Of a DNA stretch of 64,000 nt, positions 3,072 through 42,993 are shown one piece after another. Source of the DNA: Alistipes sp. (lineage in GTDB: Bacteria; Bacteroidota; Bacteroidia; Bacteroidales; Rikenellaceae); assembly GCA_017416915.1 (NCBI GenBank), contig JAFQAN010000035.1, forward strand, positions 1-64,000, written 5' to 3'. Under the pieces are notes generated by a model, which was not told the origin of the DNA, searched no databases, and saw nothing but the letters and a program-made list of their open reading frames with translations. The position numbers were made by a program, and so were the translations under genes. How positions within the stretch are numbered: position 1 is the first letter of the stretch; each line of letters begins with the position of its first letter.

Positions 3072-3509
3072 ATGGAAGTAATTCTTATCAAAGACGTAGA
3101 GAACTTGGGCTACGCAAACGACATCGTTAATGTACGCCCTGGCTATGCCAACAACTACTTGATTCCTCAGGGTTTCGCAAAGACTGCTACCGCTTCAGCT
3201 AAGAAGGTACTCGCCGAGAACCTTCGTCAGCGCGCTCACAAGGACGCTAAGATTTTGGCTGACGCACAGGCACTTGCAGAGACTATCGCAAACTTGCACC
3301 TCTCAGTAGCTGTTAAGGCTGAGGAGGAGAAGATTTTCGGTTCGGTTACCGCTGCTGACCTTGCTGCTGCATTGCAGGAGAAGGGCATCGAGGTAGATCG
3401 TAAGAACATCTCGGTTGATGCAGTTAAGACCCTTGGTGAGTACGAGGCTGTTGCCAAGTTGCACCGTGAGGTTAAGGCTACCATCAAGTTCTCGGTTGTT
3501 GCCGAGTAA
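3072..3509 (+). CDS. rplI: 50S ribosomal protein L9
   Basis: L9 sits near the L1 stalk of the large subunit. It opens MEVILIKDVENLGYANDIVNVRPGYANNYLIPQ, the canonical N-terminal domain, followed by the long connecting helix and a C-terminal domain carrying KIFGSVT. Length 145 is typical. It is the last gene of the operon; AGGAGGAGAGAA just before its ATG is a purine-rich site that is stronger than most ribosome-binding sites in this window. Confidence 0.98.
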   Translation: MEVILIKDVENLGYANDIVNVRPGYANNYLIPQGFAKTATASAKKVLAENLRQRAHKDAKILADAQALAETIANLHLSVAVKAEEEKIFGSVTAADLAAALQEKGIEVDRKNISVDAVKTLGEYEAVAKLHREVKATIKFSVVAE

Positions 3510-3592: not shown

Positions 3593-3735
3593 GCGCGCGA
3601 TTGGATGAGAACGCCTGAGAAAGACTGAGAAAGACTGGGAACGACTGGGGACGTCTGGGAATGGCTGAGAGGCGCGCGATTGGATGGGAATGACTGAGAA
3701 CGACTGAGAACGACTGGGAGGTACGCCAGCCTACT
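3593..3735 (+). repeat. Period-10 tandem repeat block (repeat element copy A, left arm)
   Basis: Two sub-blocks open with GCGCGCGATTGGATG (3593 and 3672, 79 bases apart). Each is followed by units of exactly 10 bases, such as GAGAACGCCT, GAGAAAGACT, GAGAAAGACT, GGGAACGACT in the first and GGGAATGACT, GAGAACGACT, GAGAACGACT in the second. They are the reverse complement of the 10-base units at 3814-3853, so the block can fold back on itself. Open frames through it merely echo the repeats and are not genes. Confidence 0.85.
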
Positions 3736-3742
3736 ACCACGG

Positions 3743-3802
3743 GACGACGAGACTGCGAGACTGCGAGACCACGGGACCACAGGACCACGAGACCACGAGA
3801 CC
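3743..3802 (+). repeat. Period-8 tandem repeat block in copy A
   Basis: Seven near-identical 8-base units: GACGACGA, GACTGCGA, GACTGCGA, GACCACGG, GACCACAG, GACCACGA, GACCACGA. It fills the gap between the two inverted arms of copy A and has no counterpart in copy B at 41379-41613. Confidence 0.8.
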
Positions 3803-3813
3803 CCTGAAAAACA

Positions 3814-4012
3814 CAGGCATTCTCAGGTGTTCCCAGGCGTTCTCAGTTGTGCGTGGCTGTGCGTGGCAGCTTGGCGTCAGAGTGGTGCAGATGTGGTGCC
3901 AAGTCGAAGTTTGGCTGGATGGGGGTGTACTGGGGCGTACATCCCCATTCAGACGAACGAGCTTGGTGCCGCAGATGCGCCACTATCACGCCAAGCGACT
4001 TATCACAACAAA
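3814..4012 (+). repeat. Structured core of dispersed repeat element, copy A
   Basis: Conserved with 41441-41613 on the same strand. It begins with four 10-base units (CAGGCATTCT, CAGGTGTTCC, CAGGCGTTCT, CAGTTGTGCG; 36 of 40 bases match copy B). Next come a shared TGCAGATGTGGTGC and a 16-bp hairpin (3915-3930 with 3937-3952, loop TGGGGC). A second hairpin follows around AGAT (3966-3983), and the block ends with CTTATCACAACAAA (3999-4012). No gene is visible in 3566-4067. The element may be a non-autonomous mobile repeat or a structured RNA; its function is unknown. Confidence 0.8.
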
Positions 4013-15039: not shown

Positions 15040-16320
15040 ATGAACAAAGATTTACAGATTTTTGACCTGATCGCCGAGGAGCGTTCACGTCAGATGAAAG
15101 GTATCGAGCTTATTGCATCGGAGAACTTCGTGAGCGACCAGGTAATGGCAGCTATGGGTTCGGTATGCACCAACAAGTATGCTGAGGGTTATCCCGCAGC
15201 CCGCTACTATGGCGGTTGCGAGGTGGTTGATAAGATTGAAAATCTCGCTATCGAGCGCATCTGCAAGCTCTACGGCGCAGAGTACGCAAACGTACAGCCC
15301 CACTCTGGCGCTCAGGCAAATATGGCAGTATTTTTCGCCGTTATGCAGCCTGGCGATACGTTTATGGGTCTCGACCTCTCGCACGGTGGACACCTCTCAC
15401 ACGGCTCGCCTGTAAATATGTCGGGTAAGTACTTCAACGCCGTAGGCTACAAGCTCTCGGAAGAGACTGGAAACATCGACTACGACGAGATGGAGCGCTT
15501 GGCATTGGAGCATAAGCCAAAGCTCATCGTGGGTGGTGCTTCGGCATTCTCTCGTGAGTGGGACTATAAGCGTATGCGCGAAATCGCCGATAAGGTAGGC
15601 GCTCTGTTGCTCGTAGATATGGCTCACACCGCAGGTCTTATCGCAGCAGGTCTGCTGTCTAACCCCGTAGAGTATGCTCACATCGTAACATCTACAACCC
15701 ACAAGACCCTGCGTGGTCCTCGTGGCGGTATTATCCTTATGGGTAAAGACTTCGACAATCCGTGGGGCTACACCACCCCTAAGGGCGTCGTTAAGAAGAT
15801 GTCAGCAATACTGAACTCTGCCGTATTCCCTGGTATTCAGGGCGGTCCATTGGAGCATGTTATCGCAGCTAAGGCCGTAGCATTTGGCGAGGCCCTCACC
15901 CCCGAGTACAAGGAGTACCAGAAGCAGGTTGTCAAGAACTCGAAGGCTTTGGCTGAGGCTCTTACAAAGCGTGGCTACAAGATTGTATCGGGCGGCACCG
16001 ACAACCACCTTATGCTTGTCGATTTGCGCACCAAGTTCCCAGAGCTTACTGGTAAACTTGCCGAGAAGTGCCTCGTAGCAGCAGACATCACTACCAACAA
16101 AAATATGGTTCCGTTCGACTCACGTACTCCGTTTACCACCTCGGGCTTGCGCTTCGGTACTCCCGCTATCACAACACGTGGTGTGAAGGAGGATAAGATG
16201 GACTACATTGCCGAGCTTATCGACCGAGTACTCTCTGACCCCGAGAACGAGCAGAACATCGCAGCAGTACGCAAGGATGTAAATGCCATGATGGCAGAGT
16301 ATCCGCTCTTCGCTTGGTAA
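15040..16320 (+). CDS. glyA: Serine hydroxymethyltransferase
   Basis: GlyA converts serine and tetrahydrofolate to glycine and 5,10-methylene-THF using pyridoxal phosphate. Visible marks: [10 protein letters not shown] near residue 22, the [18 protein letters not shown] segment, and the PLP-lysine motif [15 protein letters not shown] near 222-236. Length 426 is standard. It connects to the formimino-THF producing enzyme at 56614 through the one-carbon pool. The gene has its own promoter and ends at an unusual hairpin. Confidence 0.98.
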
Positions 16321-16358
16321 ACTTCTTGTGATAGCGGCGCATCAGCGACGCTTGAAGC

Positions 16359-16412
16359 ATCGGGGCGACCGGGAGATACGCAAGTATGTCCCACCCGCCC
16401 CGATTTCATTTA
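16359..16412 (+). terminator. Highly ordered GCAA-tetraloop hairpin after glyA
   Basis: The 46-base hairpin spans 16359-16404. ATCGGGGCG pairs with CGCCCCGAT, then comes a symmetric ACC/ACC internal loop, GGGA with TCCC, one G-G mismatch, and ATAC with GTAT closed by a GCAA tetraloop. TTTCATTT follows, so termination is the simplest role. Confidence 0.65.
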
Positions 16413-16447
16413 ATTGCCACACGCTACAACAATTAAATCTTCTTCTG

Positions 16448-41378: not shown

Positions 41379-41613
41379 GCTGGAAGCGACTGGAAGCGAT
41401 GGGGCGACTGGATTTTATATAGTAGCGAACAACGCTTCCTCAGTCATTCTCAGGCGTTCTCAGGCGTTCTCAGCTGTGCGGAGCGGCTTGACATCAGAAG
41501 GATTGCAGATGTGGTGCTATCCCAAAAGCTGACTGGATGGGGGTGTACTTGGACGTACATCCCCATTCAGACGAACAAGCTTGGTACCGCAGATTGCGGC
41601 TTATCACAACAAA
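41379..41613 (+). repeat. Dispersed structured repeat element, copy B
   Basis: This fills nearly all of the 320-base gap between truA and lpdA, where no gene is seen. The left arm (41379-41411) has GCGACTGGAA-type 10-base units. The right arm (41441-41480) has four exact 10-base units: CAGTCATTCT, CAGGCGTTCT, CAGGCGTTCT, CAGCTGTGCG. The 16-bp hairpin is at 41533-41548 with 41555-41570 (loop TTGGAC; stem identical to copy A). The second hairpin CCGC-AGATT-GCGG is at 41587-41599. The end CTTATCACAACAAA (41600-41613) abuts the lpdA stop codon. Flanking genes run on the minus strand, the reverse of copy A's setting. Confidence 0.82.
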
Positions 41614-42993
41614 TTATACGTGGATAGCACACCCCATCGCATCCTCGGCTGCCTCCATTACCGCCTCGTGCATCGAGGGATGCGCGTGAATGGTGCGAGC
41701 AATACGATGTGCAGTAATACCGAGGCTCTTAGCAAGCGTAGGCTCGCCAATCATCTCCGTTACGTTATGACCTACGAAGTGTGCGCCCAACAACTTCTCC
41801 TCTGCATCGAAGATAAGCTTAACGAAGCCATCGCGCTCACCCGCTGCCGTAGCCTTGCCCGACGCGGTATAGGGGAATTTACCCACCTTATACTCAATGC
41901 CCATATCGCGTACCTGCTGCTCGGTAAGACCTACCGATGCCACCTCGGGAGAGGTAAATATGCACGACGGGATAGTCGAGTAATCGACATCCTCGGGGTT
42001 AAGACCGCAGATATGCTCAACGCAGTGGATAGCCTCTGCCGAGGCTACGTGTGCCAATGCGGGGGTTGCGATAATGTCGCCTATGGCATAGACACCATCA
42101 ACGTTTGTCTTGTAGTGGTTATCGACCTTAATCTTGTCGCGCTCAACCTCGATGCCAAGCTCCTCCAAGCCGATACCCTCGATATTAGACTTGATGCCGA
42201 CAGCCGAGAGAACGACATCCGCCTCCAAGGTCTGGGCGCCCTTCTTACCCTCGACATCGACAACACACTTCCCATCCTCGCGCACCGACACCTGCTTAAC
42301 AGTGGTAGATGTCATCACCGTAGCGCGTAGCTTGCGGAAGGCGCGCTCCATAGCCTTCGCCGTATCCTCATCCTCCAAAGGCATAATCTGAGGCATATAC
42401 TCAACGATGGTAACCTTAACACCCATCGTGGCGTAGATATAGGCAAACTCCGAGCCGATAGCGCCCGAGCCAACAACAATCATCGTCTCGGGCAACGAGG
42501 GTAGCACAAGAGCCTCCTTCGACGAGATGATATGCTCGCCATCGATAGGCATAAAGGGCATAACACGAGGACGTGCGCCCGTGGCAAGTATCACATTATC
42601 AGCCTCGTACTCCACGCCATCGACATCGACTACGTGTGCCGATTTGAGCTTGCCGAAGCCTGCGATAACGTCGATATTGTTCTTCTTGAAGAGGAACTGG
42701 ACGCCCTTGTTCATCGTTGTAGCGACCATACGTTCACGCTCCACCATCTTCGTCCAATCGGGCTTCACCTCGCCCTCAATAGCCACACCAAAGGTTGCGG
42801 CAGCCTTACAATCGGCATAGACCTGTGCCGAGCGCACCAATGCCTTGGTGGGGATACAGCCCCAATTAAGGCACACACCACCAGCATCTGCCTTCTCAAC
42901 AACGGCTACTCGCTTACCGCACTGCGCAGCACGGATAGCAGCAACATAACCACCAGGACCCGAGCCTATTACGATAATATCATACTTTTCCAT
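41614..42993 (-). CDS. lpdA: Dihydrolipoyl dehydrogenase
   Basis: FAD- and NAD-dependent E3 component of 2-oxo-acid dehydrogenase or glycine-cleavage complexes. The 459-residue protein has GSGPGGYVAAIRAAQ (FAD site), the redox disulfide GGVCLNWGCIPTKAL near 41-55, GSGAIGSEFAYI (NAD site), YAIGDI and the C-terminal HAHPSMHEAV with the catalytic His-Glu pair. No E1/E2 genes are adjacent, so the partner complex is not shown. It starts 39 bases after the C69 dipeptidase gene. Confidence 0.97.
   Translation of the reverse strand: MEKYDIIVIGSGPGGYVAAIRAAQCGKRVAVVEKADAGGVCLNWGCIPTKALVRSAQVYADCKAAATFGVAIEGEVKPDWTKMVERERMVATTMNKGVQFLFKKNNIDVIAGFGKLKSAHVVDVDGVEYEADNVILATGARPRVMPFMPIDGEHIISSKEALVLPSLPETMIVVGSGAIGSEFAYIYATMGVKVTIVEYMPQIMPLEDEDTAKAMERAFRKLRATVMTSTTVKQVSVREDGKCVVDVEGKKGAQTLEADVVLSAVGIKSNIEGIGLEELGIEVERDKIKVDNHYKTNVDGVYAIGDIIATPALAHVASAEAIHCVEHICGLNPEDVDYSTIPSCIFTSPEVASVGLTEQQVRDMGIEYKVGKFPYTASGKATAAGERDGFVKLIFDAEEKLLGAHFVGHNVTEMIGEPTLAKSLGITAHRIARTIHAHPSMHEAVMEAAEDAMGCAIHV

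Follow-up and report, generated by a model that had tools for sequence, protein, structure and literature searches.

Among the known interspersed repeats of bacteria, the usual case is a link to a transposase or to a target sequence, or else the lack of any strict positional rule. Described here is a structured repeat, the Alistipes hairpin, from a 64,000-nucleotide stretch of an Alistipes sp. genome (the window; contig JAFQAN010000035.1), which is best read as a new family of structured interspersed repeats, genus-wide, often high-copy, and anchored at the stop codons of leading-strand genes. Several known elements share parts of this description. The attC sites of integrons are imperfect palindromes that follow a stop codon, their antisense strand folds better, and structure is conserved over sequence. 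The Alistipes hairpin is likewise an imperfect palindrome after a stop codon, with better folding of the strand antisense to the gene; unlike attC, the box pair RYYYAAC ... GTTRRRY is present at the ends of 0 of 143 distinct modules, and the neighbouring genes inspected lie scattered along the chromosome instead of in cassette arrays. The neisserial intergenic mosaic elements are mosaic arrays of repeat units between genes, a likeness judged by description, and we know of no stop-codon abutment or polarity for them.

Judged by published descriptions, BOX of Streptococcus pneumoniae is the nearest system in behaviour and the repetitive extragenic palindromes (REPs) are nearest in palindromic nature. 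BOX is modular, foldable as RNA, intergenic and over-represented between convergent genes; 36 annotated S. pneumoniae genes end in a BOX-encoded stop codon, and the element follows a coding-strand bias (60.8% leading), with mobility proposed via terminal repeats like those of ISSpn2 (PMC3049150). As compared by description, the Alistipes hairpin differs from BOX in being about 85-90% polar in two genomes, in lying antisense at stops, and in having no fixed terminal repeat. The REPs and the bacterial interspersed mosaic elements (BIMEs) resemble it as extragenic palindromes in high copy, with arrays and mosaics; REPs are 20-40 bp long, carry GTAG/CGTC tags and are often found with RAYT genes (PMC3733652). 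The Alistipes hairpin, unlike these, is about 125 nt long, has the REP-type tag GTAG at an end of 8 of 143 distinct modules and the tag CGTC at an end of none, and is accompanied by no Y1 transposase match in the genomes searched. A Bordetella repeat has been described as lacking co-orientation with replication (PMC3110155). The paper searches made listed none on the present element, and one survey of palindromic candidate RNAs may hold relatives: HMP2_4205, a 132-bp Bacteroidetes candidate, is by its description similar in length and palindromic, and is a predicted intrinsic terminator, unlike most Alistipes modules; some of these candidate RNAs could be related to the Alistipes hairpin (PMC8040213). 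A structured interspersed repeat is a known kind of element; its two positional rules, set out below, were not found together in the portions of the literature compared.

Structure, position and polarity of the hairpin

The module is a hairpin of 122-127 nt in which conserved internal loops and a tip accompany covarying stems, the consensus comprising TTTnnnGT/ACnnnAAA as the outer stem, YAG/AUC as an internal loop, a loop bearing GA on each side, arms that vary, and GTAC-n-CGTAC at the tip. From stretches holding the tip pattern and from loci of genus genomes, 146 modules (143 distinct) were extracted; since the finder requires the loop and tip motifs, and the tip-pattern search the exact tip, conservation of those motifs is partly built in. 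A covariance model, R1, was built from 36 diverse modules with pairwise score <0.80 (39 were chosen, and three of type T5 dropped), and changes on both sides were seen at 26 of its 34 consensus pairs. The arms fall into clearly different types, labelled T1-T6, some with runs resembling terminators. By eye, T4 and T5 resemble intrinsic terminators and most other types do not; with a U-run in the 3' half on the + strand of only 30 of 146 modules (46 on the - strand), most are not intrinsic terminators. When each strand was folded separately with RNA parameters, the + strand folded better in 132 of the 143 distinct modules, which together hold 745 G-U pairs on + vs 60 on -, and with DNA parameters the + strand was better in 141. 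One strand appears, by these folding models, to be selected to fold, whether as RNA or as single-stranded DNA. On reasoning alone, C-to-T mutational bias was not taken as the source of the excess of G-U pairs.

The 3' end of the hairpin usually adjoins the stop codon of a convergent gene. Genomes other than that of the window gave 85 clusters; a right-hand gene was called for 79 of them (at least one place, L063/L156, being counted twice) and is convergent in 75, with a distance of 0 nt in 27 of the 75 convergent clusters and of -10 to +5 in 61. In the window's own genome (G000) the right-hand gene is convergent in 26 of 34 clusters (5 of 39 had no called gene), and distances are broader, 6 of the 26 lying at 0 nt and 20 within -10 to +20. 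The stop codons beside hairpins were TAA in 36, TAG in 11 and TGA in 1 of 48, against a background of 383, 258 and 72, respectively, among 713 open reading frames of sampled stretches.

Orientation along contigs is strongly uneven. On multi-site contigs, counted from the best 150 listed matches, the minority orientation accounts for 2 of 71 sites in G000 and 3 of 42 in a second genome (G064), where 23 and 14 are expected at random; such low counts were reached in 0 of 100,000 random-orientation simulations. In nine other genomes the minority orientation was found at 5 of 49 sites on 20 contigs among the matches listed (12.8 expected, P 0.0006). Gene strand as the cause of this polarity was set aside on the even coding split in the G000 sample, in which 50.4% of coding DNA lies on the opposite strand. 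Gene-corrected skew at four-fold sites of G000, taken in the orientation of the element, was negative for T-A in 20 of 21 stretches and for G-C in 17 of 21. With the leading strand defined by skew in sampled stretches, the + strand is on the lagging sense for 39 of 46 modules in G000 and 57 of 63 in G064, the G064 stretches having been chosen around known copies. The C/A-rich strand, which mostly carries +, would then be the lagging-strand sense, that is, the template for leading-strand synthesis. In the same samples, modules stand antisense at the stops of 19 of 190 leading genes in G000 and 27 of 157 in G064. Among lagging genes this is so for 4 of 204 in G000 and 4 of 162 in G064, and modules in sense were found at 0 of 394 genes in G000 and 3 of 319 in G064.

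Copies in the window and range of the family

The original prediction was of a dispersed structured element, with copies at 3814-4012 (copy A) and 41441-41613 (copy B). The two copies are indeed homologous and structured by sequence, pairwise alignment and folding, and share the 10-base units, TGCAGATGTGGTGC, the 16-bp CTGGATGGGGGTGTAC/GTACATCCCCATTCAG stem and the end CTTATCACAACAAA; the two hairpins listed among the shared parts proved to be one continuous hairpin of about 125 nt, of which AGAT, taken as the centre of a second hairpin, is an internal loop. The module of copy A stops at 3995, and this copy has a long left part that had not been listed originally. To the two copies a third (C), located with the covariance model, is to be added. 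The features of the three are as follows.

3603-3729, + strand: tandem 10-bp units of GACTGAGAAC type in the left part of copy A, the complement of the 10-bp units at 3814-3850 (repeat search, direct and inverted pairs)
3728-3807, + strand: 8-bp tandem array GACNNCGR (repeat search), seen by eye to the left of most of the copies listed too
3814-3869, + strand: 10-bp units of CGTTCTCAGG type, then TGTGCGTGGC units (from the sequence), by eye in the same order in most of the copies listed
3870-3995, + strand: copy A hairpin module, type T1 (R1 113.8 bits, E 7.3e-26; fold z -10.5)
3996-4012, + strand: probable relic, 3' arm of an older module (CTTATCACAACAAA end), its last 14 nt identical to the end of copy B
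16318-16320, + strand: TAA stop codon ending the gene for serine hydroxymethyltransferase (15040-16320; Pfam SHMT)
16322-16433, - strand: copy C, hairpin module in partial decay, lying antisense to SHMT (R1 47.9 bits, E 1.2e-9)
41441-41477, + strand: 10-bp units of copy B (sequence, alignment with copy A)
41487-41613, + strand: copy B hairpin module, antisense to the right-hand gene (R1 65.6 bits, E 5.3e-14)
41614-41616, - strand: TAA stop codon of the dihydrolipoyl-dehydrogenase-like gene (41614-42993; Pfam Pyr_redox_2 / Pyr_redox_dim)

Copy A, itself among the 36 sequences of R1, is a near-perfect single hairpin of 126 nt, and its region (3858-4012) folds at -97.2 kcal/mol vs -53.7 +/- 4.1 in shuffles (z -10.5), so that chance does not account for the structure; it also matches the model weakly on the opposite strand. 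Copy B is weaker (41478-41613, z -3.6). Copy B adjoins its stop codon with zero spacer, and copy C is separated from that of SHMT by 1 nt. The long left part of copy A (about 3603-3807) is made up of inverted 10-bp arrays and the 8-bp array, and 3996-4012, by its sequence, is probably the left-over 3' arm of an older copy. Five neighbouring proteins tested against Pfam (L9, a YfiO/BamD-like protein, tRNA pseudouridine synthase, the dihydrolipoyl-dehydrogenase-like protein and SHMT) are ordinary housekeeping proteins. The L9 gene, rplI, was seen twice in G000, in the window at 3072-3509 and on a different contig (G000:C35:4727-5161), with proteins 92% identical, probably through admixture of a related species in the assembly.

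The expectation that the element is dispersed, and not a gene-specific leader, was borne out by many further copies in the own and related genomes, the checks proposed for relatives and for Rfam giving further copies in the one case and zero window matches at gathering score in the other. Four things had been missed: that the element is anchored at stop codons, that it is usually antisense, that its polarity is linked to replication, and that there is a third copy. By blastn there are 52 matches in the own genome; counting this genome, 12 of 61 give matches, some short, and all lie within the genus. At 1e-6, R1 has matches in 41 of the 61 genomes of the genus, and the number per genome runs from 0 to at least 58. 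Because one copy can also match weakly on the other strand, distinct strong places are used as the copy figure, and among the matches listed these are 97 in G000 and 53 in G064 (weakest 94 bits); the R1 totals of at least 150 and 127 matches may include weak opposite-strand duplicates. The tip pattern, run over genome contigs, occurs in at least 112 stretches, and by title the 112 listed are one Paludibacteraceae (L170), one 'Bacteroidales bacterium' (L087) and otherwise metagenome-assembled genomes of Alistipes/Rikenellaceae, mostly from herbivore gut. The L170 contig (JAFYSB010000041.1, titled Paludibacteraceae bacterium) reflects either a wider range or misbinning. Across the order, 4 of 295 genomes match R1 at 1e-6, namely the own genome and, more weakly, one in each of three other families; among the same 295, two genomes of the same family and another genus gave no match at that threshold. 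In one of the other-family genomes, frames of 502 and 421 codons end 10 and 13 nt inside the hairpin, in antisense (L268 and L272), and in two further loci a frame ends 6 nt (L269) and 54 nt (L270) before it. More distant members of the genus (L199, L200, L202, L235, L242) have, by eye, larger hairpins near gene ends, some with a similar tip.

Larger arrangements were also seen. A common GAACGACAAAAT end follows the hairpin in 11 loci. Eight of these extend far enough upstream, and in seven of the eight the hairpin is part of a predicted multi-branched structure of 235-306 nt. This larger conserved element consists of an outer stem (GAATAAAAAG...), a first hairpin domain that may carry an insert of about 70 nt, a T6 hairpin and the end GAACGACAAAATACACTTTTTATTC (L096, L118, L122, L126, L135, L141, L159; in part L072, L073, L080 and L136, the last of which keeps only the hairpin and the GAACGACAAAAT end). 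In other intergenic regions (L059, in part L184-L192, and others) units of 9-10 bp stand in arrays whose second arms are inverted, with or without the hairpin; these arrays, for example of TTAAGGGTTA or GTGAAAAGT type, vary by eye between species. In the copies at L018 (7180-7810) and L015 (1430-2300) an inverted array around AAAAAAATGCGGGCATCGCCCGC comes after the 8-bp array, giving the look of a partial inversion. A hairpin behind rplI in G017 (L214) is like an intrinsic terminator and has a tip resembling the element's, which might point to exchange between terminators and the element.

Turnover at stop codons and searches for known families

Comparison of orthologous genes showed that the hairpins at a given stop codon often differ. 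Directly after the lpdA-like stop codon, six of the ten closest species (own included; one degenerate) have, by eye, a hairpin, of several types, and four have none; behind rplI a hairpin is present in two of the nine closest (own included). The motif left unread 2 of 30 lpdA loci and 18 of 30 rplI loci, the latter marked 'none' (L222-L234, L236-L240). Among 728 ortholog pairs, a redundant set, 550 had no hairpin, 127 had one on one side, 44 had different hairpins on both, and 7 had similar ones, three of these being the same genome read twice. For pairs from different genomes with at least 98% protein identity, hairpins differed in 7 (4 genes) and were alike in 1. Relic arms near full copies were found on the far side in 39 cases vs 6 on the stop side, with 5 in between and 32 isolated; since the stop side has almost no room, the far-side excess partly restates the anchoring. 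The idea that only the 5' arms of older copies survive was not borne out, there being 18 far-side relics of 3' type beside 21 of 5' type.

Searches in Rfam and in phage, plasmid and viral records placed the element in no known family. In Rfam, 12 loci with copies or relatives, searched at E up to 1, gave a single weak match (18.4 bits vs a cut-off of 34). The enzyme search covered Y1_Tnp, RVT_1 and PF07282, with other transposase families not tested: a Y1 (IS200/IS605-type) transposase was found in neither the own genome nor any of 8 copy-rich relatives, with matches in 5 of 14 control genomes; RVT_1, the reverse transcriptase domain that a retroelement or group II intron would call for, has no match in the own genome, which is 92.8% complete, and is present in 3 of the 8 relatives; and PF07282 (TnpB-type) occurs in 2 of the 9 genomes. 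A miniature inverted-repeat transposable element (MITE) would have fixed terminal inverted repeats and a target-site duplication; the module ends vary between copies and covary, so that no fixed terminal repeat is apparent, and no clear target-site duplication was seen, beside a weak excess of words common to both flanks (1.62 vs 1.34). Phage and plasmid records held no match; in a viral collection one contig gave a 33-nt match to the tip at 21.4 bits, which was taken as chance.

Proposed template switching and other explanations

The preferred, though unproven, route of spread and exchange is template switching of the leading-strand polymerase, and that these are structured repeats at leading-strand stop codons moved in this way is put forward tentatively. 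A leading-strand polymerase finishing a gene would meet the folded + template and be blocked at the base of the hairpin, which is the stop codon. The nascent strand may next move to another copy, on the same strand, replicate the hairpin there and return at a point farther along, leaving a new hairpin next to the stop codon and older fragments beyond. Hairpin types would thus be swapped at a fixed site, with orientation set relative to the fork and with no transposase needed, and correction of stem arms through the same switching would help to keep the pairing. A folded leading-strand template that stops polymerase at the stop codon would fit position, polarity, strand and exchange alike. In E. 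coli, template switching at palindromes and quasipalindromes is reported to be strand-biased, and a cited title calls it leading-strand specific (PMC7202029); it can also create and repair hairpin stems (PMC8794818), so that covariation alone is no proof of function. An extension, which we consider unlikely, would make the hairpin a self-propagating single-stranded structure without an enzyme of its own, halting the leading-strand polymerase where a gene ends and copied from site to site by template switching, with stop codons of leading-strand genes as docking sites at which hairpins are replaced like cassettes.

Several points weigh against template switching at leading-strand stop codons. 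No insertion or exchange event was observed, and the model leaves a first insertion at a copy-free site unexplained. Leading and lagging strands are assigned from base skew, not from a mapped origin; both orientations occur within contigs of G000, G064, G022, G062, G075 and G082, the last four genomes holding the five minority sites of the nine other genomes; and in the window copy C runs opposite to A and B. Of the 34 right-hand genes in the own genome, 8 do not converge on the hairpin, and only 6 of the 26 that do are at 0 nt. In its simplest version the model would have only the stop-proximal arm lost, and the far-side relics are of both arms (21 5' type, 18 3' type), with 32 relics alone. 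A module definition based on loop and tip also selects intact copies. Finally, the conserved G-U positions look more like RNA selection than DNA.

A rival reading, rather doubtful in our estimate, is a functional RNA barrier, in which antisense transcripts running head-on to replication would fold just before the coding region of leading-strand genes and be terminated or cut there, the copies spreading by some means. Selection for the site would explain stop-codon anchoring, folding strand and polarity; the + strand as the selected folded strand, the conserved G-U pairs and loops, the seat of the hairpin right at the coding end, and the preference of antisense copies for leading genes with hardly any sense copies all agree with it, and it fits strand and position as well as template switching does. 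Against it, the promoter-like TAnnTTTG is only weakly in excess on the + strand (10 vs 5.3 expected in 45 regions with the left gene on -; 3 vs 2.6 in 23 other regions), and few modules carry a U-run on that strand. This weak excess is also the sole sign of the free-standing transcribed RNA that had been proposed. The other earlier proposal, a non-autonomous mobile element, fares no better in its usual form, with neither Y1 nor RVT_1 matched in the own genome and no clear duplication of target sites. A version served by a transposase or reverse transcriptase outside the tested families or the assemblies, inserting into replicating DNA near stop codons with a strand bias, would suit the range of copy number within the genus, the many closely similar T1 copies of the own genome, the RVT_1 genes of three relatives, and a slight excess of words common to both flanks (1.62 vs 1.34 +/- 0.10 shuffled, 121 clusters), which may itself come from arrays; lacking a Y1_Tnp match in nine genomes and RVT_1 in the own genome and five of eight relatives, with PF07282 in just two of nine and variable ends, it seems improbable. 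A REP/BIME-like DNA element for chromosome organisation (through gyrase or another protein), or a polar mark tolerated at gene ends, is very improbable: palindromy, location at gene ends and polarity along contigs agree with it, whereas strand-specific pairing bias and 0-nt spacing are unexpected for double-stranded binding sites, and the rarity of REP tags stands against it as well.

In summary, one strongly covarying family obeys two rules, abutment of stop codons in antisense and replication-linked polarity, and none of the enzymes sought as its possible mover was found in the own genome. If template switching is true, the Alistipes hairpin would offer a testable case of a repeat spreading by replication alone; if the RNA barrier is true, the hairpins would form a genome-wide shield of leading-strand genes from head-on antisense transcription.
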